Of a stretch of 64,000 nt of DNA, positions 4,091-61,620 are shown piece after piece. Source of the stretch: Nonomuraea sp. NBC_00507 (lineage in GTDB: Bacteria > Actinomycetota > Actinomycetes > Streptosporangiales > Streptosporangiaceae); assembly GCF_036013525.1 (NCBI RefSeq), contig NZ_CP107853.1, positions 10,602,001 to 10,666,000 on the forward strand, given 5' to 3'. A model generated the notes under the pieces. That model saw only the letters and a program-made list of their open reading frames with translations, had not been told where the DNA came from and did no database searches. The position numbers were made by a program, and so were the translations under genes. Within the stretch, counting starts at the first letter, position 1; every line of letters starts with the position of its first letter.

Positions 4091-4253
4091 GAAGTTCTCA
4101 CTCTCTCAGATGAAGCATTCGTGAATCGTAGGTCCCTATCGTCGTGGCAGTCCACGCGGGCCGCCTGAGGCCGGTGCTGACACCTCACCGACGACGGGTC
4201 CGCGGGGCAGGAATACATGACCATTCCTCCGACGGGATGACAAGGAACCCTTC

Positions 4254-5513: not shown

Positions 5514-5687
5514 GGAGTGGACCGATTACCTCAGCCACGTCCTCCCTCTCGGGTTCAGGTACCGTCTTCGACGGAGTCGTCGGTATCCTCTCCGCTGCTC
5601 ATGGGGCGTGACCGGGCGGTGGCGCGCCCAGCCGGAAGAGCGCGCCACCGCCGGTCGATGCCCCGCAGGCCGTCTCGTCGGGGAGTG

Positions 5688-8135
<2,448 letters not shown>

Positions 8136-8166
8136 GGCACGCTGCTCCAGCTCGAATCGGGGGGGT

Positions 8167-8180
8167 TGGGAGCGCTCCCA
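8167..8180. promoter_or_regulatory. CebR-type operator (cellulose-utilisation box)
   Basis: TGGGAGCGCTCCCA is an exact match to the 14-base palindrome known as the binding site of CebR, the LacI-family cellobiose-responsive repressor of streptomycetes. It lies 32 bases before the start codon of the GH3 gene. Known: CebR boxes control cellulases and beta-glucosidases. Inferred: the same control here; no cebR gene is in the window. Confidence 0.85.
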
Positions 8181-8334
8181 ATACATGGGACTCTAAATCG
8201 CGGCTTCCGCATTTCCCTGTCCCACTCACTGCACCCGCCATCACCGGTCGCCGCACCAGGGCAAACAGCACCCGATTCAGTGAAACTTTCAGCGACGCTT
8301 TACCGCCTGTGAGGCAGCCTCGATAATGCGGACA

Positions 8335-13997: not shown

Positions 13998-14064
13998 CGG
14001 CTCCTCCAATGATCGCCTTTATGAGGCCCACTCATTGAAAGCCGACTGCACGCCGACGGCAAGA

Positions 14065-14090
14065 ACCCCGGCCGGAGAACCGGCCGGGGT
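14065..14090 (-). terminator. strong hairpin terminator of the opp operon
   Basis: An 11-base perfect stem (plus strand ACCCCGGCCGG / CCGGCCGGGGT) closes a four-base loop, 20 bases past the stop of the peptide-binding lipoprotein gene. Read on the minus strand it is followed by a short T-containing stretch. It separates the transporter operon from the carboxypeptidase gene. Confidence 0.75.
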
Positions 14091-14109
14091 CCTTCGAGCT
14101 ACGCGGAGA

Positions 14110-15822: not shown

Positions 15823-17888
15823 TTTTCCTCCTGATCGTCCGAGGCCGTGATGACCTCGATCTCCTCCGCGTAGTGGCAGGCTGCGCCGTGGTCCACGGCG
15901 TTCGCGAGCCGAGCAACCGGGGGCTCTTCGTCGACACACAGCTGCTGCTCGCCCTCGGTGAGCCGGGCGAACTTGGGGCAGCGGGTGCGGAACCGGCAAC
16001 CCGATGGCGGGTCGGCCGGGCTGGGCAGGTCGCCTTCGAGCAGGATCCGCTTCCGGGTGCGTTCCATGTCCGGGTCCGGCAGCGGGATCGCCGACAACAG
16101 CGCCTGCGTGTAGGGGTGCGCGGGATGGTCGTAGACGTTCTCGACCGTGCCGATCTCGGCGATTCTGCCGAGGTACATCACGGCCACCCGATCGGCCAGG
16201 TGCCTGACCACGGCCAGGTCATGGGCCACGAACAGGTACGACAATCCCAGTGTGTTCTTCAGCTCCTCCAGCAGGTTGATCACACCCGCCTGGATGGAGA
16301 CGTCGAGTGCCGAGACCGGCTCGTCCAGGACGAGCAGCTTCGGCTCCAGCGCCAGCGCGCGGGCGATGCCGATGCGCTGGCGCTGCCCGCCGGAGAACTG
16401 CTGCGGGTAGCGCTCGGCGTGCTCGGGCGAGAGCCCGACCAGCTCCAGCAGTTCGGCGACCCGGGCCCGCACGTCCTTCCTGCCGTGCGCGCGCAGCGGC
16501 TCGGCGATGATGTCGCCGACCGGCATGCGCGGGTCGAGCGCGGCCATGGGGTCCTGGAAGACGATCTGCAGGTCGCGGCGGAGCGCCTTGCGGGCGCCGC
16601 TGTCGAGCTTGGCGCTGTCCTTGCCGAGCACGACGACCCGGCCGCCCTGCGGCGGCGCCAGCTGCATGATCTGCTGCAGTGTGGTGGTCTTGCCGCAGCC
16701 TGACTCGCCGACGAGGGCCAGCGTCTCGCCTTCCGCGATGTCGAAGCTGATGCCGTCGACCGCGTACACGGTGCCGACGCGGCGCTTGAAGACCGCGCCC
16801 TTCATCAGTGGGTAGTGCCTGATCATGCTGTCCAGCTGCAGCACCGTGGGGCGCTCGGCGCGCGGCACGCGGACCACGTCGCTCGGCGGGATGACCGGCA
16901 CGGGGAACACGTCAGCCCCGCTCAGGCCTTTGTGCTCGATCTCGTGGGAGCGGATGCAGGCGACGTGCCGCCCGCCGGCGAACGGCGTGAGCGGCGGCTC
17001 CTCGTCGTCGCACATGTCCACCTTCATGGGGCAGCGCGGTGCGAACGGGCAGCCGGGTGGCAGCGCCGACGGCGAGGGCGGGTTGCCCTCGATCGGCACC
17101 AGCGGCCCCTCCTCGCCGTCGACCCTGGGGATCGAGGCGAGCAGGCCCATCGTGTACGGCATCCGCGGCCGGTAGTAGATGTCGTCCACCGGCCCCTGCT
17201 CGACCGGCCGGCCCGCGTACATGACGAGCACCCGGTCGGCCATGCCCGCGATGACACCCAGGTCATGGGTGATCATCACGATGCCGGCCCCCGTCTCCCG
17301 CTGCGCGGTCTTGAGCACCTCCAGCACCTGCGCCTGGATGGTCACGTCCAGCGCCGTGGTGGGCTCGTCGCAGATCAGCAGGTCGGGGTCGTTGGCGATG
17401 GCCATGGCGATCATCGCGCGCTGGCGCATGCCGCCGGAGAACTCGTGCGGGAACGCCTTGGCCCGCAGGTGCGGGTTCGGGATGCCGACCAGGTCGAGCA
17501 GCTCCACGGCGCGCTTGGCGGCCTTGTCCTTGGCCATCTTCTGGTGCACGCGCACGGCCTCGGCGACCTGGTCGCCGATGGTGTAGACGGGCGTGAACGC
17601 CGACAGCGGATCCTGGAAGATCATGCTGATCGTCTTGCCGCGCACCTTGATCAGCTCGTCCTCGTCCATGCCGATCAGCTCGCGGCCGTGCAGCTTGACC
17701 GAGCCGCTGACCACGGCGCCCTTCGGCAGCAGGCCCATGATGGCCAGCGAGGTGACCGATTTGCCGGAGCCGGACTCGCCGACGATGCCGAGGACCTCGC
17801 CGCGCTCGACCTCGTACGACACCCCGCGCACCGCCTGGATGCCGCCGGGGAAGGTGACGGTGAGGTCGTTGACCTCCAAGATGCTCAC
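15819..17888 (-). CDS. fused OppD-OppF peptide transporter ATPase
   Basis: A 689-residue protein holding two complete ABC ATPase domains in one chain. Domain 1 has Walker A GESGSGKS (residues ~38-45), signature FSGGMRQRAMIAMAI and Walker B LLICDEPTTALDV. Domain 2 has Walker A GESGCGKT (about 393-400), FSGGQRQRIGIARAL and LLVLDEPVSALDV. Each ends with the Cys-rich oligopeptide-transporter C-terminal motif (CPFAPRCP..., CRFRTRCP...), which may bind an iron-sulfur cluster. It powers import through the two permeases. It overlaps oppC upstream (ATGA) and the lipoprotein downstream (GTGA). Confidence 0.95.
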   Translation of the reverse strand: MSILEVNDLTVTFPGGIQAVRGVSYEVERGEVLGIVGESGSGKSVTSLAIMGLLPKGAVVSGSVKLHGRELIGMDEDELIKVRGKTISMIFQDPLSAFTPVYTIGDQVAEAVRVHQKMAKDKAAKRAVELLDLVGIPNPHLRAKAFPHEFSGGMRQRAMIAMAIANDPDLLICDEPTTALDVTIQAQVLEVLKTAQRETGAGIVMITHDLGVIAGMADRVLVMYAGRPVEQGPVDDIYYRPRMPYTMGLLASIPRVDGEEGPLVPIEGNPPSPSALPPGCPFAPRCPMKVDMCDDEEPPLTPFAGGRHVACIRSHEIEHKGLSGADVFPVPVIPPSDVVRVPRAERPTVLQLDSMIRHYPLMKGAVFKRRVGTVYAVDGISFDIAEGETLALVGESGCGKTTTLQQIMQLAPPQGGRVVVLGKDSAKLDSGARKALRRDLQIVFQDPMAALDPRMPVGDIIAEPLRAHGRKDVRARVAELLELVGLSPEHAERYPQQFSGGQRQRIGIARALALEPKLLVLDEPVSALDVSIQAGVINLLEELKNTLGLSYLFVAHDLAVVRHLADRVAVMYLGRIAEIGTVENVYDHPAHPYTQALLSAIPLPDPDMERTRKRILLEGDLPSPADPPSGCRFRTRCPKFARLTEGEQQLCVDEEPPVARLANAVDHGAACHYAEEIEVITASDDQEEK

Positions 17889-18724
17889 GAGTTGCTCCCC
17901 GGGTCGAGTGCGTCACGCAGGCCGTCGCCGATCAGGTTGATGCTCAGCACGAGGAGCACCAGCAGACCTGCGGGGAAGACGAACAACCACGGGTAGCCGG
18001 TGGCGTTGCGCGAGCCCTCCGCGATGAGCGTGCCGAGCGAGACGTCGGGCGGCTGGATGCCGAACCCGAAGAAGGACAGCGCCGCCTCGCCGATGATCGC
18101 GCCGCTGACGTTGAGCGTCGCGTCGATGATCAGCAAGGAGGACAGGTTGGGGACGATGTGCCGGAAGATGATCTTCCAGCGCGGGATGCCCATGTAGACG
18201 GCGGCCTGGACGTATTCACGCTCGCGGAGCGAGAGCGTCATGCTGCGGACCACCCTGGAGGTGACCATCCAGGTGAACGCGGCCAGCAGCACCACGAACC
18301 AGAGCCAGGAGCCGCCCCTCAACCTCGGCGAGATGATCGCGATAATCAGGAAGCTGGGCAGGACGAGCAGCAGCTCCACACCCCACATGAGCACCTTGTC
18401 CAACCAGCCGCCGAAATATCCGGCGAAGGCGCCCACTACCGCGGCGAGGCCGGTGGCGATCAGCGCCACGAGCAGGCCGATGATGATGGACTTCTGCATG
18501 CCGCGGAGCGTGACCGCGTACATGTCCTGCCCAATGGCGCCGGTGCCCCACCAGTGGTCGCCGTCAGGGGGCGACATGAAGGCCAGGAAGTCCTTGTCGG
18601 TCCAGTCGTAGGAGCCGATGTACGGGCCGACGTACGCCAGGAGGATCAGCAGGATCAGGGCGGCGATGCCATAGCGGGCCTGCCTGTTGCGGAGCAGGCG
18701 CCGGAGAACGACTTTGGAGCGCAT
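17885..18724 (-). CDS. oligopeptide ABC transporter permease, OppC type
   Basis: A 279-residue inner-membrane permease with six predicted membrane helices and the binding-protein-dependent transport loop (YVQAAVYMGIPRWKIIFRHIVPNL, residues ~175-198; the EAA-type loop that contacts the ATPase). An N-terminal cytosolic tail (KVVLRRLLRNRQARYG) precedes helix 1, as is usual for OppC. It is one base away from the end of oppB and overlaps the ATPase gene by four bases, so the operon is co-translated. Confidence 0.93.
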   Translation of the reverse strand: MRSKVVLRRLLRNRQARYGIAALILLILLAYVGPYIGSYDWTDKDFLAFMSPPDGDHWWGTGAIGQDMYAVTLRGMQKSIIIGLLVALIATGLAAVVGAFAGYFGGWLDKVLMWGVELLLVLPSFLIIAIISPRLRGGSWLWFVVLLAAFTWMVTSRVVRSMTLSLREREYVQAAVYMGIPRWKIIFRHIVPNLSSLLIIDATLNVSGAIIGEAALSFFGFGIQPPDVSLGTLIAEGSRNATGYPWLFVFPAGLLVLLVLSINLIGDGLRDALDPGSNS

Positions 18725-18725
18725 G

Positions 18726-19703
18726 TCAGCTCACCCGCACCCGAGGATCGAGGGCCGCCACCAGCAGGTCCGACAGGAAGGCGGCGAACAGGACGCAGAC
18801 GGCGGTGAAGAAGGTCACCGCGGCCACGGAATTGACGTCGTTGGCGTTGATCGCGTCGACCAGCCAGGCGCCCATGCCGTGCCAGGCGAAGATCTTCTCG
18901 GTGAAGATGGCTCCGGTGAACATCGTTCCGAACGCGAAGGCGAAGTACGTGGCAGAGGGGATCAGCGCGGTGCGCAGCGCGTGCTTGGTCAGCGCGGTCC
19001 TGCGGCGCAGGCCCTTGGCCATGGCGGTGCGGACGAAGTCCTGGCCGAGCACGTCGAGCATCATGTTGCGCTGGATACGGCTGTAGAAGGCGATCGAGCC
19101 GAGGCTGAGGGAGATGGTCGGCAGGATCAGGTGATTGAGCCGGTTGACGAACTGCTCCAAGCCCGACAGCTTCGGGTTGTACTCGCCGGTGTACTCGATC
19201 AGCGTGAACCCGAGCCCGTCGTTCAGGGTGTACGTCGCCATCGCCAGCAGCGTGGCCAGGAGGAAGACGGGAAGGGCCATGATCACGAAGGAGCTGACGC
19301 CGATTAACCGGTCGCTGAGCTTGTACTGCCGCACCGCCGAGAGGGCTCCGAAGGCCACCCCGAGGGCGAAGCCCACCACCGTGCCGATCAGCAGCAACCG
19401 CAGGCTGACGAAGATCCGCCGGCCCATCTCCGCATTGACCGAGCCGCCGTTCCAGGTCCTGCCGAAGTCTCCCGTGATGACGCCCTTGGCCCAGGTCCCG
19501 TAGCGCACGAGCACGGGGGTCTTGTCGTTCAGGTTGTAGGCGTCGAGCGTGGCGTCGATGACCGACTCGGCGATGGGAGGCTGGCGTGCCTGGTACGCGG
19601 CCCGCGGGTTCATGGTGCTGGCGGCAAGCGTGTACGCGAGACTGGCCGCGATCGCTACCAAGATCACATTCATTGCCAACCTGCGAAGCAGGTACTTGCC
19701 CAT
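18726..19703 (-). CDS. oligopeptide ABC transporter permease, OppB type
   Basis: A 325-residue permease with an N-terminal membrane helix (YLLRRLAMNVILVAIAASLAYTLAAS), a large extracytoplasmic loop, and five further helices containing the transport loop (DFVRTAMAKGLRRRTALTKHALRTALIP). It pairs with OppC to form the membrane channel. The ATG at 19703 is chosen because CGGAGAG lies directly upstream; an in-frame start eight codons earlier lacks one. It is the first gene of the operon oppB-oppC-oppDF-oppA, read leftward from the intergenic region at 19704-20194. Confidence 0.92.
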   Translation of the reverse strand: MGKYLLRRLAMNVILVAIAASLAYTLAASTMNPRAAYQARQPPIAESVIDATLDAYNLNDKTPVLVRYGTWAKGVITGDFGRTWNGGSVNAEMGRRIFVSLRLLLIGTVVGFALGVAFGALSAVRQYKLSDRLIGVSSFVIMALPVFLLATLLAMATYTLNDGLGFTLIEYTGEYNPKLSGLEQFVNRLNHLILPTISLSLGSIAFYSRIQRNMMLDVLGQDFVRTAMAKGLRRRTALTKHALRTALIPSATYFAFAFGTMFTGAIFTEKIFAWHGMGAWLVDAINANDVNSVAAVTFFTAVCVLFAAFLSDLLVAALDPRVRVS

Positions 19704-20129
19704 TACTCTCCGTTCGCGCTGTCCCATACCGCGTCGTGAAAACTCAATGACGCGGTGATGGCGATCAGCCGGAGAATATCTGCCACCATATAACGTCAGA
19801 AACGAGTCAACATAACATTCAGGTCACTCACAATAGATCGCAAGAGGTCGTGTGATGCACCAAAAAAGCGGCCTGCACCTGCGGAAACACCGGCAATTCA
19901 GGGGCTTCTTTGCCGCTTCGGTAAGCGGTAGTGTCACAAAACCCGGACAATAATTGACGATTGACCGGCGTGATCCACATCATTGTGTAGCGCCTTAGAA
20001 TCGGGGCTTTCTTGTCCCTCGGCCGATTCGCGGGGGTCCTCGACCCGTCGCCGCGACGGCCCACAGTTCGCGCGAGACGCCGGCGCGGCCCACGCCCCGG
20101 TCTCGAGGCCACCCGGGACAACGTATCGC

Positions 20130-20194: not shown

Positions 20195-20920
20195 GTGCGG
20201 GACGTGGCAACTGATCCTCAGCGGGACGCCGCCCGGCACGTCCAGGTGGTCCAGGCCCTCGGCACCCGCATCGTCGGCGGTTCTCTTCCCCCTGGCACGT
20301 CCATCCCCGTCGAAGAGCATCTCGTCGGCGAGCTGGGCGTGGGCCGGTCGGCGGTGCGGGAGGGCGTCAAGGTCCTGGCCGGCAAGGGCCTGCTGGAGAC
20401 CAGGAGGAGCGCGGGCACCCGGGTGCGCCCCCGCGCGTCCTGGAACCTGCTCGACGCCGACGTGCTGAGCTGGCGGTTCGAGCCGGAGCCGCGACCCGAG
20501 GACATCCGGGTGCTGGCCGACCTCCGCGTGGCGCTGGAGCCGGGCGCGGCCAGGGTGGCGGCCGAGCGGGCCGACGCGAGCGCGGTGCGGCGCGTCGACG
20601 AGGCCCTGGCCGCCCTCTACGCCACCGCCGACGACCCCGAGCCGTTCATCGAAGCCGACCTGGCCTTCCACAAGGCGGTGTTCGCCGCGGCGGACAACGA
20701 CCTGCTGCTCTACATCTACGACATGATCAGCATCGCCCTGCGGTCCGTGCGCCAGGTGCACACCCGCTCGGTGGCGCACAACAAGGAGACGCTGCCCGGC
20801 CACGAGCGGGTGGCGGTGGCGATCAGGCGCCGTCACCACCGCAAGGCCGAGGAGGCCATGCGCGAAGTGGTCGAGGTCGCCCGCGCCGACGCCGAGCAGC
20901 ACATCCGCCTCTGTTGCTAG
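20195..20920 (+). CDS. FadR/GntR-family (FCD-domain) transcriptional regulator
   Basis: A 241-residue regulator: an N-terminal GntR winged helix (GTSIPVEEHLVGELGVGRSAVREGVKVLAGKGLLETRRSAGTRVRPR) and an all-helical FCD effector domain with its metal-binding histidines and acidic residues (DLAFHKAVFAAADN, HTRSVAHNKETLPGHERVAVAI). FCD domains usually bind sugar acids or other carboxylates. No ribosome site is visible; the GTG at 20195 or one at 20204 could start it, and TAACGT seven bases before 20204 could be a -10 of a leaderless message. It heads the CoA-dependent operon and likely controls it. Confidence 0.9.
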   Translation: MRDVATDPQRDAARHVQVVQALGTRIVGGSLPPGTSIPVEEHLVGELGVGRSAVREGVKVLAGKGLLETRRSAGTRVRPRASWNLLDADVLSWRFEPEPRPEDIRVLADLRVALEPGAARVAAERADASAVRRVDEALAALYATADDPEPFIEADLAFHKAVFAAADNDLLLYIYDMISIALRSVRQVHTRSVAHNKETLPGHERVAVAIRRRHHRKAEEAMREVVEVARADAEQHIRLCC

Positions 20921-20930
20921 GAGCCCTCAT

Positions 20931-21695
20931 TTGGACGTCCTCCTCGACGTCGACGGCCCGGTGGCCGTCGTCACCCTCAACAGACCCGCCAAACTCAACG
21001 CCATCACCCCCGGCATGGCCGCCGCGCTGCGTGCCTGCCTGGACCGGATCGACGCCGACCCGGCCCTGCGGGTGGCCGTGCTCACGGGCGCGGGCGACCG
21101 CTCGTTCTGCGTGGGCAGCGACATCCGGGAGCTGGACGCGTACGACACGCCGTGGGAGTTCCGCAACCGCGGCGACTACGGCGACGCGGTCCGGGCCCTG
21201 CGTAAGCCGATCGTCGCGGCCGTCAACGGCTACGCCTACGGCGGCGGCCTGGAGCTGGCCCTGGCCTGCGACATCCGGCTGGCCGCCGGCACGGCGACGT
21301 TCGCCGCGCCCGAGATCAAGCTCGGCTGGATCGGCGGCAGCGGCCAGTCCGCGTTGCTGGCCCACTCGGTCGGCCCGGGCAACGCGGCCACCATGCTGCT
21401 GACCGGCGACCCCATCGACGCCGCCCGCGCCCTGGCGTGGGGGCTGGTCACCGACGTGCTCCCGCGCGAGGAGCTGCTGCCCGCCGCCGTCGAGCTCGCC
21501 GGGAGGATCGCGGCACGACCCCCGATCGCCGCGCAGACTGCCAAGGCCAACCTGAAGGCCGCCTACTCGATGCCGCTCGACCAGGCCATCCAGTACGAGC
21601 GCGACCTGCAGACCGTCTGCTTCGCCACCGCCGACGCCGCCGAGGGCCGGGCCGCGTTCGCCGCCCGCCGCGAGCCCGTCTTCGAGGGGCGTTGA
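20931..21695 (+). CDS. enoyl-CoA hydratase/isomerase family protein
   Basis: A 254-residue crotonase-fold enzyme. The CoA-binding/oxyanion segments are present (SFCVGSDIRELDAY and NGYAYGGGLELALACDIRLAA), and PEIKLGWIGGSGQSALL carries the family's second catalytic glutamate position. The start is TTG at 20931 with TAGGAG seven bases upstream. It should hydrate, dehydrate or isomerise an acyl-CoA made by the CoA-transferase encoded next, with which it overlaps by one base. The pairing recalls CaiD-CaiB of carnitine metabolism, but the surrounding sugar genes argue for a different acid substrate. Confidence 0.9.
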   Translation: MDVLLDVDGPVAVVTLNRPAKLNAITPGMAAALRACLDRIDADPALRVAVLTGAGDRSFCVGSDIRELDAYDTPWEFRNRGDYGDAVRALRKPIVAAVNGYAYGGGLELALACDIRLAAGTATFAAPEIKLGWIGGSGQSALLAHSVGPGNAATMLLTGDPIDAARALAWGLVTDVLPREELLPAAVELAGRIAARPPIAAQTAKANLKAAYSMPLDQAIQYERDLQTVCFATADAAEGRAAFAARREPVFEGR

Positions 21696-22873
21696 TGGGC
21701 GCGCTCGACGGCTACCGCGTCATCGACCTGTCCATCGCGATGGCGGGACCGCTGGCCGCCATGCGGCTGGGAGATCTGGGCGCGGACGTGGTCAAGGTGG
21801 AGCCGGTGACCGGCGAGTGGCAGCGGCACGCCCCCGCGGGCGGCGCCACGGGCAACCGGGTCAACGCCTCGTTCCTGTCGCTCAACCGCAACAAGCGCAG
21901 CCTCGCCGTCGACCTGAAGTCCGAGGAGGGCCGCGAGATCGTGCACCGGCTGGCCGCGACGGGCGACGTGTTCCTGCAGAACTACCGGCCCGGGGTGGCC
22001 GAGCGGCTCGGCATGGACTACGAGACGATCAGCGCCGTCAACCCCGCCATCATCTATGTCTCCATGTCGGGATACGGGGAGAGCGGTCCCTACGTGTCGA
22101 GGCCGGGGCAGGACATCCTGCTGCAGGCCATGAGCGGGGCCATGTTCAGCACGGGCCGCGACGGCGACCCGCCCGCGCCCGCCGGGACGTACGCGATCGA
22201 CGCCGTCACCGCCTACAGCGCGTTCGAGGGCGCGCTGGCCGCGCTGCTGCACCGCGAGCGCACCGGCGAGGGCCAGCGGGTGAGCGTCAACATGCTGGAC
22301 GCGGCCATCGCCGTGCAGATGCAGGAGCTGTCGATCTTCACGGTCGGCAAGGTGCCGCAGCGGCGCGGGCGCGAGCCGCACGGCCACACCTACATTCGCG
22401 CGCCGTACGGCGTGTTCGCCACCAAGGACGGTTACCTCGCGCTCGGCATGCCCAGGCTCGACGTGCTGGCGGTCGCGCTCGATCTGCCCGAGGTGGCCGG
22501 AATGGACGGCCACGCCGGGCGCGACGAGATCACCGCGGCCGTGGCTCGCCGCCTGCCGGACCGCACCACGGCCGAGTGGCTGGAGATCTGCGCCCGCCAT
22601 GACCTGTGGGCGGGACCCGTGTACGGCTACGCGGACCTGGTGGCTGATCCGCAGGTGCGGCACAACGGCTCGTTCGTCACCTACGAGCACCGCACCGAGG
22701 GCACGGTCACGACGCCCGGCTTCCCGTACCGCATGAGCGCAGGCCCGCCATCGGTGCGCAGGGGCGCGCCGCTGGTCGGCGAGCACACGCGTGAGCTGCT
22801 CGACGAGCTCGGCTACCCGGCCGAGCGCACGGCCGAGCTGGTGGCGAAGGGTGTCCTGGCGTGCGCGGACTGA
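21695..22873 (+). CDS. CaiB/BaiF-family (class III) CoA-transferase
   Basis: A 392-residue family III CoA-transferase. Recognised features include the N-terminal GYRVIDLSIAMAGPLAAMRLGDLGADVVKVEPVTGE, FLQNYRPGVAERLGMDYETI, VSMSGYGESGPY, and the aspartate in GTYAIDAVTAY expected to form the acyl-enzyme intermediate. It moves CoA between two carboxylic acids in the cytosol. The ATG is fused to the preceding stop (TGATG). Together with the hydratase it implies that a carboxylate, perhaps a sugar acid, is activated to a CoA thioester before dehydration. Confidence 0.92.
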   Translation: MGALDGYRVIDLSIAMAGPLAAMRLGDLGADVVKVEPVTGEWQRHAPAGGATGNRVNASFLSLNRNKRSLAVDLKSEEGREIVHRLAATGDVFLQNYRPGVAERLGMDYETISAVNPAIIYVSMSGYGESGPYVSRPGQDILLQAMSGAMFSTGRDGDPPAPAGTYAIDAVTAYSAFEGALAALLHRERTGEGQRVSVNMLDAAIAVQMQELSIFTVGKVPQRRGREPHGHTYIRAPYGVFATKDGYLALGMPRLDVLAVALDLPEVAGMDGHAGRDEITAAVARRLPDRTTAEWLEICARHDLWAGPVYGYADLVADPQVRHNGSFVTYEHRTEGTVTTPGFPYRMSAGPPSVRRGAPLVGEHTRELLDELGYPAERTAELVAKGVLACAD

Positions 22874-23970
22874 CCTGGGACCATCCGCGCGGGTACGCGC
22901 CGCTGGACGAGCTGACCCGGCTCGACCTGGCAGGACACAACCCGTATGGCGACGTGCCCGAGCCGATCGCGTGGGACCGGCAGCCACTCGAGGGGTTCGA
23001 GTCCGAGCCGATCGCGACGTTGTGCGAGAGGTACGACGTGCTCGTGATCGACCACCCCGGACTTGGCGCGGCCGTGGACGCGCTGGTGCCGATGGAGGAG
23101 CTGTTCGAGCCGGACGAGCTGGCCAGGCTCGAGGCCGGCACGGTCGGCCGCACCTGGGACAGCTACCACCTGGAGGGACGCCAGTGGGCGCTGCCGCTCG
23201 ACGCGGCCACCCAGGTCGCCGCCGCCCGGCCCGGCGTCGAGGCGCCGAGGACCTGGCCGGAGGTGGCGGAGTTCGCCCGGGGCACGCGGATGGCGCTGTG
23301 CCTGGGCGGGCCGCACGCCTTCCTCATGTACTGCGCGCTCTGCTCGGGCGACTTCCTCGACGACAAGGCCGGCACCAGGGCGCTGGAGCTCATGGCCGAG
23401 CTGCTTGCGCTCGCCGACCGGGAGGTGTCGCTGCGCAACCCGATCGGCGTGCTCGACGCCATGGCCGCGGGCGGGCCCGAGTACTGCCCGCTGGTGTACG
23501 GCTACGTCACCTACCCGCTGGCGTTCTCCGACGCGCCCTCCTGGCCGGGACGGCCGCCGGGGAGCGTGCTCGGCGGAACGGGGCTGGCGGTCTCGCGGCG
23601 GCGCGTCGAGACGACCGGCGAGTCCGCCGGCACGGTCGGCCAGTCCGCCGCGGTCGGCCAGTCCGCCGGCACGATCGGCGCGGCCGTCCGCGCGCACCTG
23701 CGCCGGCTGACGTCCGCGCCGGTGCAGGCCGCGCTCTTTCCCGCCACCGGCGGGCAGGCAGCCGCCCGGGCCGTCTGGCAGGCCCAGGGCACCGCACCGT
23801 TCTACCGCGGCACCTCCGCCACGATGGAGGCCGCCTGGGTCAGGCCGCGGTTCCCCGGCTACATCGCCCTGCAGGACAGGTCGTCCGCGCTGCTCCGCGA
23901 CGGGCTGCTCGCCCGCGTGCCGGCTCGCGACCTGCTCGAGAACCTGCGTAAGGAATGGAGGCACGCATGA
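22861..23970 (+). CDS. solute-binding-protein-fold protein without signal peptide
   Basis: A 369-residue protein whose segments (ATLCERYDVLVIDHPGLG, LPLDAATQVAAARPG, APRTWPEVAEFAR, VSLRNPIGVLDAMAAG) resemble family 1 sugar-binding proteins of ABC transporters. It begins directly with the mature-like domain: there is no signal peptide, lipobox or membrane helix, and no transporter gene is nearby. It lies between the CoA-transferase (13-base overlap, GTG start) and the SDR (ATGA overlap). It therefore probably acts in the cytosol as a binding or catalytic partner of the CoA enzymes. Residues ~252-275 are a Gly/Ser/Ala-rich insert built of short repeats (SAGTVGQ, SAAVGQ, SAGTIG). Confidence 0.7.
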   Translation: MRGLTWDHPRGYAPLDELTRLDLAGHNPYGDVPEPIAWDRQPLEGFESEPIATLCERYDVLVIDHPGLGAAVDALVPMEELFEPDELARLEAGTVGRTWDSYHLEGRQWALPLDAATQVAAARPGVEAPRTWPEVAEFARGTRMALCLGGPHAFLMYCALCSGDFLDDKAGTRALELMAELLALADREVSLRNPIGVLDAMAAGGPEYCPLVYGYVTYPLAFSDAPSWPGRPPGSVLGGTGLAVSRRRVETTGESAGTVGQSAAVGQSAGTIGAAVRAHLRRLTSAPVQAALFPATGGQAAARAVWQAQGTAPFYRGTSATMEAAWVRPRFPGYIALQDRSSALLRDGLLARVPARDLLENLRKEWRHA

Positions 23971-24665
23971 CCACGGCGCTCGTCACCGGCGCGGCGGGAG
24001 CGCTCGGCAAGGCGATCGTCCGCCGCCTGACGGCCGACGGCCACCAGGTGGCGGCACTCGACCTCGACGCCGGCGCGCTCGAAGCCGCGCTCAACCTCAA
24101 AGTGGATCTGCGCGACCCGGCCGCCATCGAGGAGGCGTTCGCCGAGACGGCCGCGCGGCTCGGCCCGGTCGGCATCCTCGTCAACAACGCGGCCGTCTAC
24201 CCCAGCAGGCCTTTCCTGGAGGTGCCGCTGGCCGAGTACGACGACGTGCACGCGGTCAACCAGCGCGCCTACTGGCTGGCCGCCCAGCACGCCGCCCGGC
24301 AGATGACCGGAGGCGGCGCGATCGTCAACATCGCCTCGATCACCATGCACGGCGGCTGGTCCGACCTGGCCGCCTACGTCGCCACGAAAGGCGCGGCGGC
24401 CGCGCTGACCAGGGCCCTGGCCCGCGAGCTCGGCCCGCGTGAGATCCGGGTCAACTGCGTGTCGCCGGGCGCGTTCCCCACGGCAGCCGAAGAGATCCAT
24501 CCGGATCCGGAGGCGTACAACCGGTTCGTCCTGGAACGGCAGTCGCTGCAGCGGCGCGGCACCCCGGAGGAGCTGGCCGCCGTGGTGTCGTTCCTCACCG
24601 GCCCGGACGCCTCGTTCGTGACGGGCCAGACCATCGAAGTCAACGGAGGGTGGGTGATGGCATGA
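23967..24665 (+). CDS. short-chain dehydrogenase/reductase (SDR)
   Basis: A 232-residue classical SDR: cofactor motif VTGAAGALGKAI (residues ~5-16), structural NNAAVY, catalytic Ser in NIASITMH and the YVATK active-site pair, then the C-terminal VNGGW typical of the family. The aspartate after strand 2 (ALDLD) favours NAD over NADP. The ATG at 23967 overlaps the preceding stop (ATGA) and is preferred over an upstream in-frame ATG. In this operon it likely oxidises a sugar or hydroxy-acid that the later steps use. Confidence 0.92.
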   Translation: MTTALVTGAAGALGKAIVRRLTADGHQVAALDLDAGALEAALNLKVDLRDPAAIEEAFAETAARLGPVGILVNNAAVYPSRPFLEVPLAEYDDVHAVNQRAYWLAAQHAARQMTGGGAIVNIASITMHGGWSDLAAYVATKGAAAALTRALARELGPREIRVNCVSPGAFPTAAEEIHPDPEAYNRFVLERQSLQRRGTPEELAAVVSFLTGPDASFVTGQTIEVNGGWVMA

Positions 24666-25702
24666 CGCCGGACCGCAAGCGGCTGGCCGAGCTGACCGGA
24701 GACCTGAGCGCGGCCGGCGGGGTCCGGCTGGTGACGCTCGGCGACGGGCTCGAACGCGGCATCAGGACCCTGGAGTTCCGCACCGGCTCAGGCCTGGCGT
24801 TCGACGTGCTGGTCGACCGGTGCATGGACATCGGGCACGCCGAGCACGCCGGGCGGGCGTTCGGCTGGCGCTCCCCCACCGGCTTCCGCCATCCGGGGCT
24901 GCACGAGAACGCCGACGAGGACGGCCTGTCGTGGCTGCGCTCGTTCTCCGGGCTCATCGTCACGGCCGGGCTCGACCACACGCTGTTCGGCGGCGAGGTG
25001 CCCGCCGGCGACTACCGCTACCCGCCGCGCCAGAGCGTGCGGCACGGGCTGCACGGCCGCGTCGGCAACATCCCTGCCCGGCTGACCGGGTACGGCGAGC
25101 GGTGGGAGGACGACCGCTGCGTGCTCTGGGCCGAGGGCGAGGTGCGCCAGGCCGCGGTGTTCGCCGAGAACCTGCGCCTGGTCCGGCGCATCGAGGCGGA
25201 CCTGGGCGGTGACGAGATCAGGCTGGTGGACACGGTCACCAACGCCGGGTTCGAGCCGGCGCCGCACATGTTCCTCTACCACATCAACCTCGGCTGGCCC
25301 CTGCTCGACGAGGGCGCCAGGTTCGAGGCCGACATCCGCGAGACCCTCTGGCAGACCGACAGCGTGGCCGAGCAGAAGGCCGACCACATCACCTTCCCCG
25401 GGCCCGCTCCCGGGTTCGTGGAGCAGGTGTACGAGCACGCGCTGGTCCCCGGCGCCGACGGGACGCACCGGGTGGCGGTGGTCAACGACCGGCTCGGCAT
25501 GAAGGTGAGCGTGGAGTGGCCGGCGGCGGAGTTCCCGTACTTCTTCGAGTGGCTGAACCTGCGCTCCGGCAACTACGCGGTCGGCCTGGAGCCGTCCACC
25601 CACCACGTGTCCGGTGACACGGCGGCCAGACAGGACGGCAGCATGATCTGGCTCGGACCGCTGGAGTCGCGGGTCTACCACACGACCTTCCGCGTCTCCT
25701 AA
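24662..25702 (+). CDS. DUF4432 (aldose-1-epimerase-like) protein
   Basis: A 346-residue cytosolic protein matching the DUF4432 branch of the galactose-mutarotase fold: FDVLVDRCMDIGHAEHAGRAFGWRSPTGFRHP, LIVTAGLDHTLFGG, RHGLHGRVGNIPA, FLYHINLGWPLLDEGA and GLEPSTHH. The conserved histidines of the mutarotase site (LHGR and YHINLG) are present. It likely interconverts or isomerises a sugar or sugar-derived keto form feeding the operon. The ATG at 24662 overlaps the SDR stop (ATGA). It is the last gene of the operon and overlaps the end of the convergent lactonase gene by four bases. Confidence 0.85.
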   Translation: MTPDRKRLAELTGDLSAAGGVRLVTLGDGLERGIRTLEFRTGSGLAFDVLVDRCMDIGHAEHAGRAFGWRSPTGFRHPGLHENADEDGLSWLRSFSGLIVTAGLDHTLFGGEVPAGDYRYPPRQSVRHGLHGRVGNIPARLTGYGERWEDDRCVLWAEGEVRQAAVFAENLRLVRRIEADLGGDEIRLVDTVTNAGFEPAPHMFLYHINLGWPLLDEGARFEADIRETLWQTDSVAEQKADHITFPGPAPGFVEQVYEHALVPGADGTHRVAVVNDRLGMKVSVEWPAAEFPYFFEWLNLRSGNYAVGLEPSTHHVSGDTAARQDGSMIWLGPLESRVYHTTFRVS

Positions 25703-26529
25703 TGCAGGCCGTACGCGCGCCGGGCGGTGCCGGCGAACACCTCGGCGCGCTCACCTCCCGACAGCCCCGCGCACAACTCGTCCGCGGCCTGCGCGACCCG
25801 CTGGTATTCGGCCGCGAGCAGGCACACCGGCCAGTCGGAGCCGAACATCACCCGATCAGGCCCGAACGCCTCCAGCACGACCTCCGCGTACGGCCGCAGG
25901 TCGGACACCCGCCAGGTCGCCCAGTCGGCCTCGGTGACCATGCCGGACAACTTGCAGTAGACGTTGGGGTGCGCGGCGAGCTCTTTGATCCGGCTCCGCC
26001 ACGGCTCCAGCTCCCCGGCCGCGATCGGCGGCTTGGACAGGTGGTCGAGCACGAACGTCAGCCCCGGCATGGCCCTGACCGTGTCGATGGCGGCGGGCAG
26101 CTGGCGCGGCAGCGTCAGCAGATCGTAGGCCAGCCCGGCGGCCTCCACCGCGGCGAGCCCGCGCCGCACGTCGGGCCGGTTGAGCCACTCCGGGTCGGGC
26201 TCGGACTGCACGCCGTGGCGCACGCCCACCAGCCCGCCGGGCAGGGCGGCCAGCGTGTCGGCGGCATCCGGCGCGGTCAGATCGATCCAGCCGACCACGC
26301 CCGCGACCAGGTCGGACACGGCCGCGAGTGCCAGGAACTCGCGAGTCTCGTCAAGATCGGACAGCACCTGCACGAGCACGGTGCGGGTCACCCCGGCCGC
26401 GGCGGCGGGCCCTGCCAGGTCGTCGAGCGTGAACGTGCGCCGGACGGGCGCCATCGGCTCCGGGTCCAGCCAGGTGTGCGGGCGGACGGCGAGGTCCCAG
26501 ACGTGGTGGTGTGCGTCGATGCGATCCAT
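25699..26529 (-). CDS. amidohydrolase 2 family, L-fuconolactonase-like lactonase
   Basis: A 276-residue TIM-barrel metal-dependent hydrolase (amidohydrolase 2). The N-terminal metal motif DAHHHVWD (His7, His9), HGVQSEPDPEWL, FVLDHLSKPPI, YCKLSGMVTEADW and the C-terminal FGSDWPVC with its metal-binding aspartate are all typical of L-fuconolactonase and related sugar lactonases. It should open a sugar lactone to the free acid. It is divergent from the secreted GH95 fucosidase, which would supply the sugar, and convergent with the CoA-dependent operon, which could use the acid. Confidence 0.88.
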   Translation of the reverse strand: MDRIDAHHHVWDLAVRPHTWLDPEPMAPVRRTFTLDDLAGPAAAAGVTRTVLVQVLSDLDETREFLALAAVSDLVAGVVGWIDLTAPDAADTLAALPGGLVGVRHGVQSEPDPEWLNRPDVRRGLAAVEAAGLAYDLLTLPRQLPAAIDTVRAMPGLTFVLDHLSKPPIAAGELEPWRSRIKELAAHPNVYCKLSGMVTEADWATWRVSDLRPYAEVVLEAFGPDRVMFGSDWPVCLLAAEYQRVAQAADELCAGLSGGERAEVFAGTARRAYGLH

Positions 26530-26597: not shown

Positions 26598-29006
26598 GTG
26601 ATCAACGACGGCTACACACGACGGGGCGTGCTGGCGACCGGGTTAGGCGCCGCCGCCGGAACCCTGCTGACGAGCGGCGTCCCCGCACGGGCCGCCACCA
26701 CCGACGGCAACCCTCTTGCCCTCTGGTACACGCGCCCCGCCACCGCCTGGCTGGAGGCGCTGCCGGTCGGCTGCGGGCGGCTCGGCGCGATGGTGTTCGG
26801 CGGCGTGGCCACCGAACGGTTCCAGCTCAACGAGGACAGCATCTGGGCCGGTGGGCCGCACACCTACGACAGTCCCGAGGCGCTGGCCGCGCTCCCCGAG
26901 ATCAGGCGGCTGGTCTGGGAGGACAAGTGGCAGGCGGCGCAGAACCTGGCCGACCGGACATTCCTCGGCAGGCCCAGCGAACAGGCGCCGTACCAGGTGC
27001 TCGGCGACCTGACGCTGACGTTCCCCGGCTCGGCCGAGTTCACGGAGTACCGCCGCGAGCTGGACCTGACGCGGGCGGTCACCACTGTGACGTACGTCCG
27101 CGACGGCGTGCGCCACACGCGCGAAGTCTTCGCCAGCAACCCCGACCAGGTCATCGTCGTCCGGCTCACGGCCGACAAGCCCGGCTCCGTGACCTTCCAG
27201 GCGGCCTTCTCCAGCCCGCAGTCCTCCGGCGTCGCCGCTGCCGGGCGGGACACGATCGCCCTCGACGGGGTCAGCGGCGACACCCAGGGGCTCAAGGGCG
27301 AGGTGCGTTTCCGCGCCCTGGCCAAGGCCCAGGCCAAGGGCGGCACGGTCCGCGCCGACGGCGGCACGCTGGTCGTCGAGGGCGCCGACGAGGTCACGCT
27401 GCTGATCTCCATGGGCTCCAGCTACCGCAGCTACAAGGACGTCGGCGGTGACCCGGCCGAGGTCGCGGGGCGGCATCTCGAGCGGGCGGGCGGGCAGCCG
27501 TACGAGGTGCTGCGGCGTAAGCACGTCCACGACTACCAGCGGCTCTTCGGCCGGGTCGAGATCGACCTGGGCACCTCGGAGGCGGTCGCGCTGCCGACCG
27601 ACGAGCGCATCGCGCGCCGGCAGCTCGACACCGACCCGCAGCTGGCCGCCCTGTACTTCCAGTACGGCCGCTATCTGCTGATCTCCTGCTCCCGCTCCCC
27701 CGGCTATGCCGCGAACCTGCAGGGCATCTGGAACGACTCGCTGACGCCCGCGTGGGAGTCGAAGTACACCATCAACATCAACTGCGAGATGAACTACTGG
27801 CCGGCCGGGCCCGCCAACCTCATCGAGTGCATGGACCCGCTGTTCGACCTGATCAAGGATCTGTCGGAGACGGGCGCCAAGACCGCGCGGACGCAGTACG
27901 GCGCGGGCGGCTGGGTGGCGCACCACAACACCGACGGCTGGCGCGGCACGGCGCCCGTGGACTTCGCCTTCTACGGCGTGTGGCCCACCGGCGGCGCGTG
28001 GTTGTGCCTGACGTTGTGGGAGCACTACCTCTACACGGGGGACGAGCGGCGGCTGCGCGAGCACTTCCCGCTGATCAAGGGATCGGTGGAGTTCTTCCTC
28101 GACACGCTGCAGACCGACCCCAGGACCGGCTACCTGGTGACCAACCCGTCGCACTCACCCGAGGTGGGGCACCACGAGGACGGCGACGAGAACGTCAGCA
28201 TCTGTGCCGGGCCGACCATGGACATGCAGATCCTGCGGGACCTGTTCGAGGCCTTCGCCTCCGCGTCCGAGGTCCTGGGGCGGGAGCCGGAGATGCGGGA
28301 GAAGGCGCTGGAGGCGCGTTCCCGGCTCGTGCCGAACCAGGTCGGCCACCTCGGGCAGATCCAGGAGTGGCAGGAGGACTACCGCGGTGACGCGGCGCTG
28401 TCGCGCAGCCGGCACATCTCGCACCTGTGGGGCCTGTTTCCCGGGCACCAGATCGACCCGCGCCTGTCGCCGGAGCTGGCCGCGGCCGCCCGCCGGACCT
28501 TGCAACTGCGCGGGGAGGCGGGGGCCGGGTGGTCGCTGGCCTGGAAGATCAACTTCTGGGCGCGGCTGCTGGACGCGGCGGAGGCGTACAAGCGGCTGGG
28601 GAACCTGCTGGTGCCGGCCAGGACCGCGCCGAACATGTTCGACCTGCACCCGCCTTTTCAGATCGACGGCAACTTCGGCGGCACGTCGGGGATCACGGAG
28701 ATGTTGTTGCAGAGCCACGCGGACCAGGTGCATGTGCTGCCCGCCCTGCCGGCCGCCTGGCCTTCCGGGTCGTTCCGTGGGCTGCGGGCGCGGGGCGGCT
28801 TCGAGGTGTCCCTGGAGTGGGCCGGCGGGGCACTGACGCGCGGGCGGATCCGCTCGGACCTGGGCCGCCGGCTGACCCTCCGCACCTCGAAGCCGGTCAC
28901 GGTGACGCGGGACGGCCGCCCGGTCGAAGCCGGCCGCCCGGAGCCCACCGTGCTCGTCCTCGACACCCGCCGCCACGCCGTCTACGACCTCGCCCCGTCC
29001 CCCTGA
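26598..29006 (+). CDS. secreted GH95 alpha-L-fucosidase/galactosidase
   Basis: An 802-residue enzyme with a twin-arginine-type leader ([22 protein letters not shown]). The GH95 N-terminal beta domain opens with [31 protein letters not shown], and the (alpha/alpha)6 barrel follows. Residues known in GH95 AfcA are conserved: Asn393 and Asn395 ([11 protein letters not shown]), Glu522 (PSHSPE) and Asp690 (FQIDGNFGG). It hydrolyses alpha-1,2-linked L-fucose, or L-galactose in plant polymers, by inversion. The start is GTG with AGGAG five bases upstream. Its product is a fit for the lactonase and SDR nearby. Confidence 0.93.
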
Positions 29007-29149
29007 CCCAGCTGTCCGACCACGAGCAGTGGGAGCGCTACAGCCGCGCCCGCATCGAGGAGGGCGGCGCCCTGTCGGACTACTACCCCCTCACCCCCGA
29101 GACCCGCGCCGAGTACGAACGGTGGCGGGAAGTTAAGGAGAGCCAGTGA
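29003..29149 (+). CDS. small ORF coupled to GH95 and the next gene
   Basis: An open frame of about 46-48 codons bridges the GH95 stop and the next gene, one base back relative to the GH95 frame. It has strong third-position GC, a well-behaved amphipathic composition ([19 protein letters not shown], then [18 protein letters not shown]) and no stop. It ends in a GTGA overlap with the beta-helix gene. No ATG, GTG or TTG exists at its 5' end; CTG at 29003 or 29012 are the only candidate starts. Alternatively, slippage on the CCCCC run at 28999-29003 fuses it to GH95 as a C-terminal tail. Function unknown. Confidence 0.6.
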
Positions 29150-30954
29150 TCCTCAGGTCCTTGGGCGCGATCGTCTTACTCCTCGGCGGGGTGACGACGC
29201 CCACCCCGGCGGCCAGGCCCTCGTGCGACTACTACGTCTCCCCCGCGGGCGGCGGCCAGGGCGACGGCAGCGCCCAGCGCCCGTGGACGTCCATCGAGCA
29301 GGCCCGCGACCAGCTGCGGTCGAAGAAGCGGCAGCAGAAGTGCGACATCGTCGTCAATCTCAAGGCCGGCGACTACGTCGTGGACAAAACGATCACCTTC
29401 ACCGAGGCCGACTCCGGCGAGAACGGCCACAAGATCATCTACCGCAGCGCGGACGGCCCCGGCAAGGCCCGCCTGCTCGGCGCCAAGCCGCTGACCGGCT
29501 GGCAGAAGCACACCGACACCATCTACAAGACCAAGATCGACCGGACCTTCTACACGCTCTTCGAGGACGGCAAGCGCGCCACGACCGCCCGTCACCCGAA
29601 CCGGACGAGCGACGACCTCTGGTCGCCTTACCTGTTCTCCGTGCTGGGCGAGCCGGAGAAGGAGGCGGTGCGCCAGTGGCTGTACTTCAAGCCGGAGGAC
29701 GTGCCGAAGGAGTGGGACGCCGACTTCGACAAGAACTCCCAGATCGTGGTCTGGTCGGGCGGCTCGTGGAGCTGGTTCACCGACACCGTGCCTCTGGGCG
29801 GCGCCGACTTCCGCAAGAACTTCTTCACGCTCAACCACTGGGCGCGCTACTCGTTCGTCAACAGCCGCAGCGGCTCGCGCTACTTCCTGCAGAACACGCT
29901 GCGGTTCCTGGACCAGCCGGGCGAGTACTACTTCGACTTCGCGAACAGTGAGGTCTACTACTGGCCGCGCACGTCGATCGACAAGGTCATGGCCCCGACC
30001 GTGAAGACGATCATCTCGCTGGCCGGGTCCTCCCCCGACCGGCGCGTGCAGAACGTCGCCTTCGACGGGCTGGCGCTGCAGTATTCCGACTTCGTGGACT
30101 GGTATCGGGCCGGGTGGATCAGCGAGGGCGACTCCGGCTACGAGCACAAGTATCCGGTCTACGACCGGCAGATCGAGATGCCGCGCAACCGGTTCGGGAT
30201 GATCACGCTGACCAACACCAGGGACATCGACCTGACCAGGCTGCGGCTGTCCGACAGCGGCTTCATGGGCGTCTACATGTTGTTCGCGAACGAGCGCGTC
30301 AAGGTGTCCGACAGCCTGCTGGAGAACATCGGCGCCGACGGCATCAAGGTCGAGGGCGGATATCCGGGCGAGGGCGACATTTCCGGACATCACGCGATCT
30401 CCAATAGCTACATCTCCCACGTCGGCGAGCTGGTCCCCGGCGACGCGGCCGGCATCGAGCTGCTGAGCACCGGCAACAACGTGGTCAGCAACATCGTCGT
30501 CAAGCACAGCGCCCGCTACGGCATCAGCCTCGAGGTCCGTCCCGAGGTCAAGGACGAGGACAACTACGCGCGCAACAACCGGTTCTCCTACATCCGCATC
30601 GAGGAGGCGGGGCTGGACAGCGGGGACATGGGCGCCTTCTACACCTACGGCGTCTCCAACTCCGACCCGCACCCGATCGACAACCACGTCTCGCAGATGG
30701 TGATCGGCGACGTCATCAACGACCCCGGCGGCGCGATGCCCGACAGCGGGACCCGCGGGGTGCACATGGACGCCGGCGGCTGCGGGTTCTCCTTCGAGAA
30801 CATCGAGGTCGGCAAGGTCAGCGACGACAAGTACCAGAGCTACCAGTGCAACGAGGTCAAGAACGCCAACTGGGCAACCGGCTTCGACGCCTCCCAGATG
30901 GAGTACGACAAGATCGGCGTCACCAGCGCCTTCCCCTATCCGATCCCCAGCTAG
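29146..30954 (+). CDS. secreted beta-helix glycosidase-like protein (GH141-like)
   Basis: A 602-residue secreted protein with a short Sec signal peptide (LGAIVLLLGGVTTPTPAARP). The entry motif YYVSPAGGGQGDGSAQRPWTSIEQARDQLR is shared by parallel beta-helix glycosidases. A lectin-like insert follows, then helix turns (NTRDIDLTRLRLSDSGFMGVYML, LLENIGADGIKVEGG, GNNVVSNIVVKHSARYGISLEV). The size and layout resemble GH141, which includes a fucosidase acting on rhamnogalacturonan II; GH120 or a non-catalytic member are alternatives. The GTG start overlaps the small ORF stop. It sits between GH95 and GH106 genes, supporting a pectin side-chain role. Confidence 0.72.
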   Translation: MILRSLGAIVLLLGGVTTPTPAARPSCDYYVSPAGGGQGDGSAQRPWTSIEQARDQLRSKKRQQKCDIVVNLKAGDYVVDKTITFTEADSGENGHKIIYRSADGPGKARLLGAKPLTGWQKHTDTIYKTKIDRTFYTLFEDGKRATTARHPNRTSDDLWSPYLFSVLGEPEKEAVRQWLYFKPEDVPKEWDADFDKNSQIVVWSGGSWSWFTDTVPLGGADFRKNFFTLNHWARYSFVNSRSGSRYFLQNTLRFLDQPGEYYFDFANSEVYYWPRTSIDKVMAPTVKTIISLAGSSPDRRVQNVAFDGLALQYSDFVDWYRAGWISEGDSGYEHKYPVYDRQIEMPRNRFGMITLTNTRDIDLTRLRLSDSGFMGVYMLFANERVKVSDSLLENIGADGIKVEGGYPGEGDISGHHAISNSYISHVGELVPGDAAGIELLSTGNNVVSNIVVKHSARYGISLEVRPEVKDEDNYARNNRFSYIRIEEAGLDSGDMGAFYTYGVSNSDPHPIDNHVSQMVIGDVINDPGGAMPDSGTRGVHMDAGGCGFSFENIEVGKVSDDKYQSYQCNEVKNANWATGFDASQMEYDKIGVTSAFPYPIPS

Positions 30955-31034
30955 GCGAGGCCTGGACTGCGGGGTGCCGGCCGAGCGGGCGGCGCCCCGC
31001 CGGCCGGCGCCGTCCTCACCCCCTGGAGCGCCCG

Positions 31035-61498: not shown

Positions 61499-61529
61499 GG
61501 CGGCCTCGTGTCCTTGGGGAAACTGGAAC

Positions 61530-61620
61530 GGAGGCGCACGGGAATCGAACCCGCCGACGACGCCGCGCGCCGTCCACCGGTTTTGAAGACCGGGGTGCAC
61601 ACCAGAACACAAGCGCCTCC
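61530..61620 (-). tRNA. selC: tRNA-Sec (anticodon TCA)
   Basis: A 91-base tRNA gene, longer than normal as tRNA-Sec is. The acceptor stem GGAGGCGC pairs with GCGCCTCC (8 base pairs), the anticodon loop reads CTTCAAA with anticodon TCA, the long variable arm is GC-rich, and the T arm contains GGTTCGATTCC. It decodes UGA in fdhG and lies directly upstream of selA. Confidence 0.95.

Follow-up and report, generated by a model that had tools for sequence, protein, structure and literature searches.

Introduction

Fatty acids and organic acids, rather than sugars, are the usual substrates of CoA-thioester chemistry. A class III CoA-transferase and a crotonase-fold hydratase make up the CaiB-CaiD carnitine system of Escherichia coli, and the known non-phosphorylative routes for L-fucose and L-rhamnose use, to our knowledge, no CoA. 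The families to which aldonate dehydratases are assigned in print include IlvD/EDD and enolase (PMC9795676) as well as UxaA/GarD (PMC6336799). Here, we describe an operon in a 64,000-nucleotide stretch, called the window below, of the 12.9-Mb genome of Nonomuraea sp. NBC_00507 (contig NZ_CP107853.1, positions 10,602,001 to 10,666,000), which combines CoA enzymes with apparent sugar genes. Six plus-strand genes at window positions 20195-25702 encode, in this order, a GntR/FCD regulator, a crotonase/enoyl-CoA hydratase family protein (ECH), a class III CoA-transferase (CaiB), a solute-binding-protein-like protein (SBPL), a short-chain dehydrogenase/reductase (SDR) and a DUF4432 protein. We see an even chance that this operon breaks down an aldose of plant origin non-phosphorylatively, with a CaiB/CaiD-like CoA cycle dehydrating the aldonate as its thioester.

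The ECH and CaiB genes overlap in the sequence TGATG, and the CaiB-SBPL, SBPL-SDR and SDR-DUF4432 overlaps comprise 13 to 16 bases, as expected for one transcript. A sequence-only reading of this DNA had placed the gene set in one operon, with a convergent lactonase gene and a GH95 gene following, and this arrangement was confirmed in the window. No description of the gene set was found in the open-access full-text literature, which is weak evidence of absence because subscription papers lay outside that scope.

Co-conservation of the gene set

Related loci were collected through SBPL by a profile scan with one genome per species and two peptide patterns, which yielded 305 relatives. The best 80 loci (numbered with the prefix L) were retrieved, a choice that favors conserved members and the presence of SBPL itself. 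Besides Nonomuraea, the set covers further Actinomycetota, many Alphaproteobacteria, some Betaproteobacteria and a few Gammaproteobacteria, which are distantly related bacteria of soil and plants, and the matches nearest to the window SBPL come from Nonomuraea. Genes were counted over loci by tblastn; the calling of open reading frames (ORFs) was crude, and the gene maps therefore miss genes. In 75 of the 80 loci, a same-strand CaiB gene is found no more than 600 bases from SBPL, in three of them in shortened form, and it is directly upstream in 73. ECH (at least 45% identity) is present in 71 loci and within 600 bases of SBPL in 51, SDR (at least 40%) in 63 and DUF4432 (at least 45%) in 58, with the latter two adjoining in 40. 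The amidohydrolase, which is the putative lactonase, was found in 21 loci and GH95 in 15.

Because this set had been picked through SBPL, the count was repeated from the CaiB side with 15 records, hand-picked for variety out of 54 matching plasmid records. In 14 of these, ECH and CaiB are at most about 3 kb apart, and the remaining one carries MaoC; SBPL adjoins CaiB or is no more than about 4 kb away from it in 13. The sequence-only reading had staked its proposal on five genes staying together in other genomes, and across the 80 SBPL loci and the 15 CaiB-anchored records they do so well enough for the proposal to stand. Within the Nonomuraea genome, the full-length paralogues of CaiB are only 33-39% identical to it (one 195-residue piece reaches 48%), and a scan of 396 genomes from its phylum at E 1e-120 found CaiB in 2, the source genome counted. 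The low paralogue identity and this sparse occurrence point to a distinct, patchily distributed CaiB subfamily.

A GH141 gene lies upstream of SBPL-GH95 in four Streptomyces loci (L016, L017, L018 and L022), with an RraA-like gene nearby in L018 and a DapA-family gene nearby in L017. The shortened CaiB of L018 has 302 residues and a CoA_transf_3 match; about 35 residues before the catalytic Asp are missing, and an Asp is kept, by eye, at the catalytic place. A 776-residue open frame in L022 spans both CaiB and SBPL, yet no Pfam domain was found in it at E 1e-5, and a fusion protein is not claimed.

Catalytic residues of CaiB and ECH and the fold of SBPL

Residues were counted in clustered ORFs (68 for CaiB and 49 for ECH), each set with the window protein added. 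In an alignment with formyl-CoA transferase YfdW, Asp169 of CaiB, numbered from the ATG, falls on the catalytic Asp of that enzyme, likewise number 169, and this position is Asp in all 69 sequences. With its family match and this catalytic Asp, CaiB qualifies as a class III CoA-transferase. Glu108 and Glu128 of ECH, presumably the two crotonase catalytic positions, are kept in 50 of 50 aligned sequences. Because these catalytic residues are intact, both CaiB and ECH look like active enzymes. For comparison, E144 is named for rat enoyl-CoA hydratase (PMC9007349). Compared with solved structures, CaiB scores 231 bits with succinate-hydroxymethylglutarate CoA-transferase and 99 bits with the carnitine enzyme, and against the curated model of L-carnitine CoA-transferase it reaches 128.7 bits, below the cut-off of 413. 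These scores favor dicarboxylic-acid transferases over the carnitine enzyme.

SBPL is predicted to adopt a complete MalE-type sugar-binding-protein fold and begins with a conserved GLTWDHPRGY-like sequence. Fewer than 12 residues precede this motif in 59 of 72 sequences, and the other 13 have no hydrophobic stretch in a simple hydropathy test, which is not a signal-peptide predictor. No DNA-binding domain was detected in the window SBPL. Within the cytosol, SBPL most likely binds the sugar or the corresponding acid.

Weimberg-like clusters with FAH and ALDH partners

FAH-family relatives of 2-keto-3-deoxypentonate dehydratases occur in 31 of the 80 loci and are of two types. The longer type (about 390 residues), mostly located behind ECH in Proteobacteria, matches 2q18 (E 4e-14) and the FAH family protein 9kkt (E 4e-125) and presumably belongs to COG3970. 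The shorter type (317 residues), which is actinobacterial and divergent from the GntR gene, matches 2q18, a 2-keto-3-deoxy-D-arabinonate dehydratase, at E 4e-59. FAH/MhpD members of Herbaspirillum huttiense are assayed dehydratases of D- and L-2-keto-3-deoxypentonate (PMC6336799). An aldehyde dehydrogenase (ALDH) is present in seven of the 80 loci, one at 28% identity, and the order CaiB, SBPL, ECH, FAH, ALDH is found in L039, L041, L058, L072, L112, L113 and L129 and, with SDR before ALDH, in L024 and L027. These clusters are Weimberg-like, and CaiB, SBPL and ECH appear, on gene content, to be their only candidates for converting the aldonate into the 2-keto-3-deoxy acid.

The association was also seen in a family-level survey of 250 genomes (SBPL at E 1e-30 and the KdaD-type FAH gene at E 1e-50), in which SBPL occurs in 17 genomes and the KdaD-type gene in 98. 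Both are present in 14 of the 17 SBPL genomes, versus a KdaD-type gene in 84 of the 233 others (Fisher p 0.0004, uncorrected for relatedness; six of the 14 share one genus), and in 7 of the 14 their coordinates place them no more than 7 kb apart. At L119, where neither SDR nor DUF4432 was matched, a DctP-type TRAP importer takes their place, which agrees with an acid as the entry point.

To judge by the FAH and ALDH genes nearby, the substrate is in many lineages more readily explained as a pentonate than as a deoxyhexose. The scheme of the sequence-only reading, oxidation of a sugar to its acid followed by CoA activation and dehydration, survives, with FAH and ALDH completing the route in other genomes; the deoxy- or branched sugar that it had placed at the start is unsupported, as the linked FAH enzymes indicate pentonates in many lineages.

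Sphingomonad cassettes (L046, with same-cluster genes in L063, L075 and L081) are accompanied by genes for a small P-loop kinase, a 2-hydroxyacid dehydrogenase and LldD (L-lactate dehydrogenase); in L046, which was the locus scanned, LldD exceeds its cut-off. These partners hint at lactate, glycolate or glycerate as products.

Conventional dehydratases and replacement of ECH by MaoC

No IlvD/EDD homologue was found in the 80 loci with three of the four own-genome proteins as queries. UxaA/GarD was matched in 11 of 23 genomes searched and in none of the locus stretches, placement outside the loci being judged by contig coordinates on the assumption of the same assemblies and, in one case, by sequence. 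Enolase-type (MR_MLE) homologues are missing from 24 of the 31 FAH-bearing loci, or from 23 if a 26% match in L044 is counted.

In some cassettes, ECH is replaced by MaoC, namely in the second cassette of L083, in L109, L110 and L118 and, by a weak match, in L062; L118 and, with the same reservation, L062 combine MaoC with the main CaiB type and have no ECH. Plasmids of Pararhizobium and Ensifer carry MaoC with second types of CaiB and SBPL (CaiB2 and SBPL2) near an amidohydrolase, an IclR regulator, a sugar ABC importer, MR_MLE and an L-rhamnose mutarotase. The same set is found in Nitratireductor, without MaoC in the stretch examined, and Martelella has a MaoC-SBPL2-CaiB2-Gfo arrangement with proteins 35-36% identical to those of the window. 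That two unrelated CoA-dependent hydratase folds swap beside CaiB and SBPL favors a shared step in which a CoA thioester is hydrated or dehydrated. The two folds differ in their preference at C3, crotonase and MaoC enzymes taking opposite configurations. An assignment of the substrate from stereochemistry was considered and is not used as evidence, because an enol product weakens the argument.

Proposed pathway and alternatives

The proposed pathway builds on gene content, gene order, co-conservation, catalytic residues and the predicted fold of SBPL, from which we infer every reaction and substrate. DUF4432 would set the anomer of the aldose, SDR would oxidize C1 to give the lactone, and the amidohydrolase would open the lactone to the aldonate. 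CaiB would then transfer CoA from an acyl-CoA onto the aldonate, and ECH would take the C2 proton and the C3 hydroxyl from the aldonyl-CoA to form a 2-keto-3-deoxyacyl-CoA. With the transfer of CoA onto the next aldonate by CaiB, the two enzymes would together act as a CoA-cofactored aldonate dehydratase, as CaiB and CaiD do with carnitine. The free 2-keto-3-deoxy acid would finally pass to an FAH-family dehydratase and an aldehyde dehydrogenase, which are linked to the cassette in other genomes and unlinked in the present one.

Several observations weigh against this pathway. The amidohydrolase was not detected in 59 of the 80 loci, and no FAH gene lies in the locus stretch of 49. Among the matches listed for the ALDHs scanned, no NCBIfam cut-off is reached, and the best PDB match is 3v4c, an aldehyde dehydrogenase (NADP+). 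The KdaD-type orthologue of the present genome, 85% identical to a linked actinobacterial one, lies 94 kb beyond the window, and the rest of a pathway was not recognized by eye around it. IlvD/EDD and many MR_MLE genes are present in the Nonomuraea genome, all outside the window, so that a conventional dehydratase could act from outside the operon; UxaA/GarD was not matched in this genome. MR_MLE homologues occur in 17 of the 80 loci, a query-dependent count obtained in each of two scans, of which the first alone includes L023 and the second alone L044. They are also carried by the MaoC-type cassettes L083 and L108-L110, which argues against simple replacement of a dehydratase there, and CaiB-ECH is thus not always the sole dehydratase at hand. 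Two sugars processed side by side would reconcile MaoC with MR_MLE in these cassettes. The swap is moreover not a clean one, since MaoC and ECH are both present in L044, L115 and L119, and in L111 of Sinorhizobium medicae CaiB2-SBPL2 lies among unrelated genes with neither MaoC nor sugar genes.

The role of SBPL is the weakest part of the scheme, because some cassettes do without SBPL and some Streptomyces have kept it after the loss of CaiB. The sequence-only reading had made SBPL an integral part of the set, and this is not supported: in 2 of the 15 CaiB-anchored records it is not beside CaiB (L083, where it lies 9 kb away, and L084, where none was found), and in Streptomyces L016-L018 and L022 and Actinoallomurus L021 it accompanies GH95 with CaiB missing or shortened and no ECH. 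It comes close to an even chance, independently of the other alternatives, that SBPL stands outside the catalytic unit and accompanies the pathway as a sugar sensor or sugar-holding protein of the cytosol. Its retention in the five actinobacterial loci, the CaiB-ECH pairs without an adjoining SBPL and the complete predicted binding fold are all in keeping with such a role; the position of CaiB directly upstream in most loci, although these were chosen via SBPL, and the lack of a detected DNA-binding domain in the window protein speak against it.

The GH95, GH141 and GH106 set in Nonomuraea suggests that the sugar comes from pectin side chains. Each of these families has members active on rhamnogalacturonan II, and the substrate of CaiB and ECH might therefore be a branched or O-methylated acid of this polymer that metal-dependent dehydratases would be unable to dehydrate or to cleave at the ether; examples are aceric acid, D-apionate and 2-O-methyl-D-xylonate. 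The grouping of the three genes in the window fits this idea, the enolase-type dehydratases near some cassettes would then handle ordinary sugars, and the best-matching solved CoA-transferase takes 3-hydroxy-3-methylglutarate, a tertiary 3-hydroxy acid. We nevertheless consider it unlikely, because GH95, GH141 and GH106 were not matched in the locus stretches of Paracoccus, Sinorhizobium and Azospirillum (L024, L027, L036 and L072) and the linked KdaD-type FAH enzymes suit straight pentonates.

Alternatively, an ordinary dehydratase would yield the 2-keto-3-deoxy acid, and CaiB-ECH would come in at a subsequent step, with this keto acid or one of its cleavage products (glycolate, glycerate or lactate, for instance) as substrate. 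The MR_MLE homologues, including those of the MaoC-type cassettes, and the 2-hydroxyacid dehydrogenase, small kinase and LldD-like genes that follow in sphingomonads would be accounted for, and we regard the idea as rather improbable because so many complete-looking cassettes have none of the three conventional dehydratase types in the searches described above. A role of CaiB, ECH and SDR in the metabolism of fatty-acyl or carnitine-like compounds, with the sugar genes as mere neighbors, would agree with most of their named library relatives but is very improbable in view of the recurrent linkage to DUF4432, SBPL, sugar ABC importers, FAH and lactonases across distant lineages and of the low identity of the full-length CaiB paralogues.

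For the proposed CoA cycle as a whole, a joint reading can be formulated, which we hold to be doubtful: a fourth bacterial chemistry of sugar-acid dehydration, beyond IlvD/EDD, enolase and UxaA/GarD, would use CoA thioesters made by CaiB, a crotonase- or MaoC-fold dehydratase matched to the C3 configuration and a cytosolic MalE-fold protein that hands the acid to CaiB. If the proposed CoA cycle is right, CoA-thioester chemistry joins sugar-acid breakdown, and the widespread orphan family of signal-less binding proteins and the DUF4432 neighbors that are usually labeled as transport or epimerase parts are explained. Candidate genes are available in soil bacteria that are easy to handle in the laboratory, such as Azospirillum brasilense.

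Genes of the Nonomuraea window and other neighbors

The features of the operon and its surroundings are collected in Table 1. For SDR, none of the best 25 NCBIfam models reaches its cut-off. Opp genes are sparse across the 80 loci (OppA in 2, OppB in 8 and OppC in 9), and the 33 OppDF matches are mostly low-identity ABC ATPases.

Table 1. Coordinates of the operon and adjoining features in the window.
Feature	Position	Strand	Match or remark
Transcription regulator (GntR/FCD) at the head of the operon	20195..20920	+	Pfam GntR and FCD
ECH, crotonase/enoyl-CoA hydratase family, 254 aa, TTG start	20931..21695	+	ECH_1 E 9e-62
CaiB, class III CoA-transferase, 392 aa from ATG at 21695	21695..22873	+	CoA_transf_3 E 9e-106
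SBPL, MalE-fold solute-binding-protein-like, no signal peptide, 369 aa	22861..23970	+	
SDR oxidoreductase, probable sugar 1-dehydrogenase	23955..24665	+	adh_short_C2 E 4e-54; start maybe ATG 12 bases downstream
DUF4432, aldose-1-epimerase-like, probable mutarotase	24650..25702	+	PF14486 E 2.5e-92; PDB 3ty1 (hypothetical aldose 1-epimerase) E 5e-23
Amidohydro_2, fuconolactonase-like, probable aldonolactonase, convergent	25699..26529	-	NF052480 (curated NCBIfam L-fucono-1,5-lactonase) 219.5 bits, under 400 cut-off
GH95 glycosidase, secreted (twin-arginine-like N-terminus, by eye)	26598..29006	+	Glyco_hydro_95_cat E 2e-167
GH141-like parallel beta-helix protein	29146..30954	+	GH141_M and Beta_helix
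GH106-like (alpha-L-rhamnosidase family)	30846..33962	+	PF17132 E 3e-44; true start probably past 30954
Opp-type ABC importer, divergent	14110..19727	-	neighbor in some Nonomuraea only

At L011, DUF4432 is followed by an SrpI-like shell protein of the type 2A encapsulins, which has a cNMP-binding domain (12994-14448, scanned), and same-cluster encapsulin genes follow the operon in L008 and L012, which makes three Nonomuraea species in all. A Gfo/Idh/MocA oxidoreductase is found in 19 of the 80 loci and a sugar-phosphate-isomerase-like TIM barrel in 17; both are linked to DUF4432-SDR in rhizobia (e.g., L036) and others. Upstream in the window, at 3212-8186, frame starts alone indicate a group of a cupin/AraC-like regulator, a Gfo/Idh-like oxidoreductase and a large protein. 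Farther downstream, a formate dehydrogenase-like gene (by eye; 54793-57804, minus strand) is interrupted by an in-frame TGA, which, taken as selenocysteine, gives ...RVUHGP..., and a tRNA-SeC at 61529-61620 and a SelB-like reading from 60191 (by eye) are located near it.

Comparison with known systems

The Weimberg pathway (Route II) shares with the related clusters a sugar dehydrogenase, sometimes a lactonase, a sugar importer and a regulator, and an FAH relative and an ALDH are candidates for its later steps. The difference is that CaiB, ECH (or MaoC) and SBPL occupy the slot of the aldonate dehydratase in many clusters, and in the window itself no IlvD/EDD or MR_MLE match of the genome was found for this step. 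In comparison with the non-phosphorylative L-fucose and L-rhamnose routes, the fuconolactonase-like amidohydrolase, the SDR, the probable mutarotase and the nearby GH95 are alike, whereas the window has no enolase-type dehydratase and its lactonase falls under the family cut-off.

The MalE-type sugar-binding proteins of ABC importers differ from SBPL, which has no signal peptide and sits between genes for CoA enzymes, away from importer genes. With the carnitine system of E. coli, the operon has the type of enzyme pair in common, and CoA could likewise pass from product to substrate; the sugar importers, the sugar-oxidation genes and the partner with a binding-protein fold set the present clusters apart from it.

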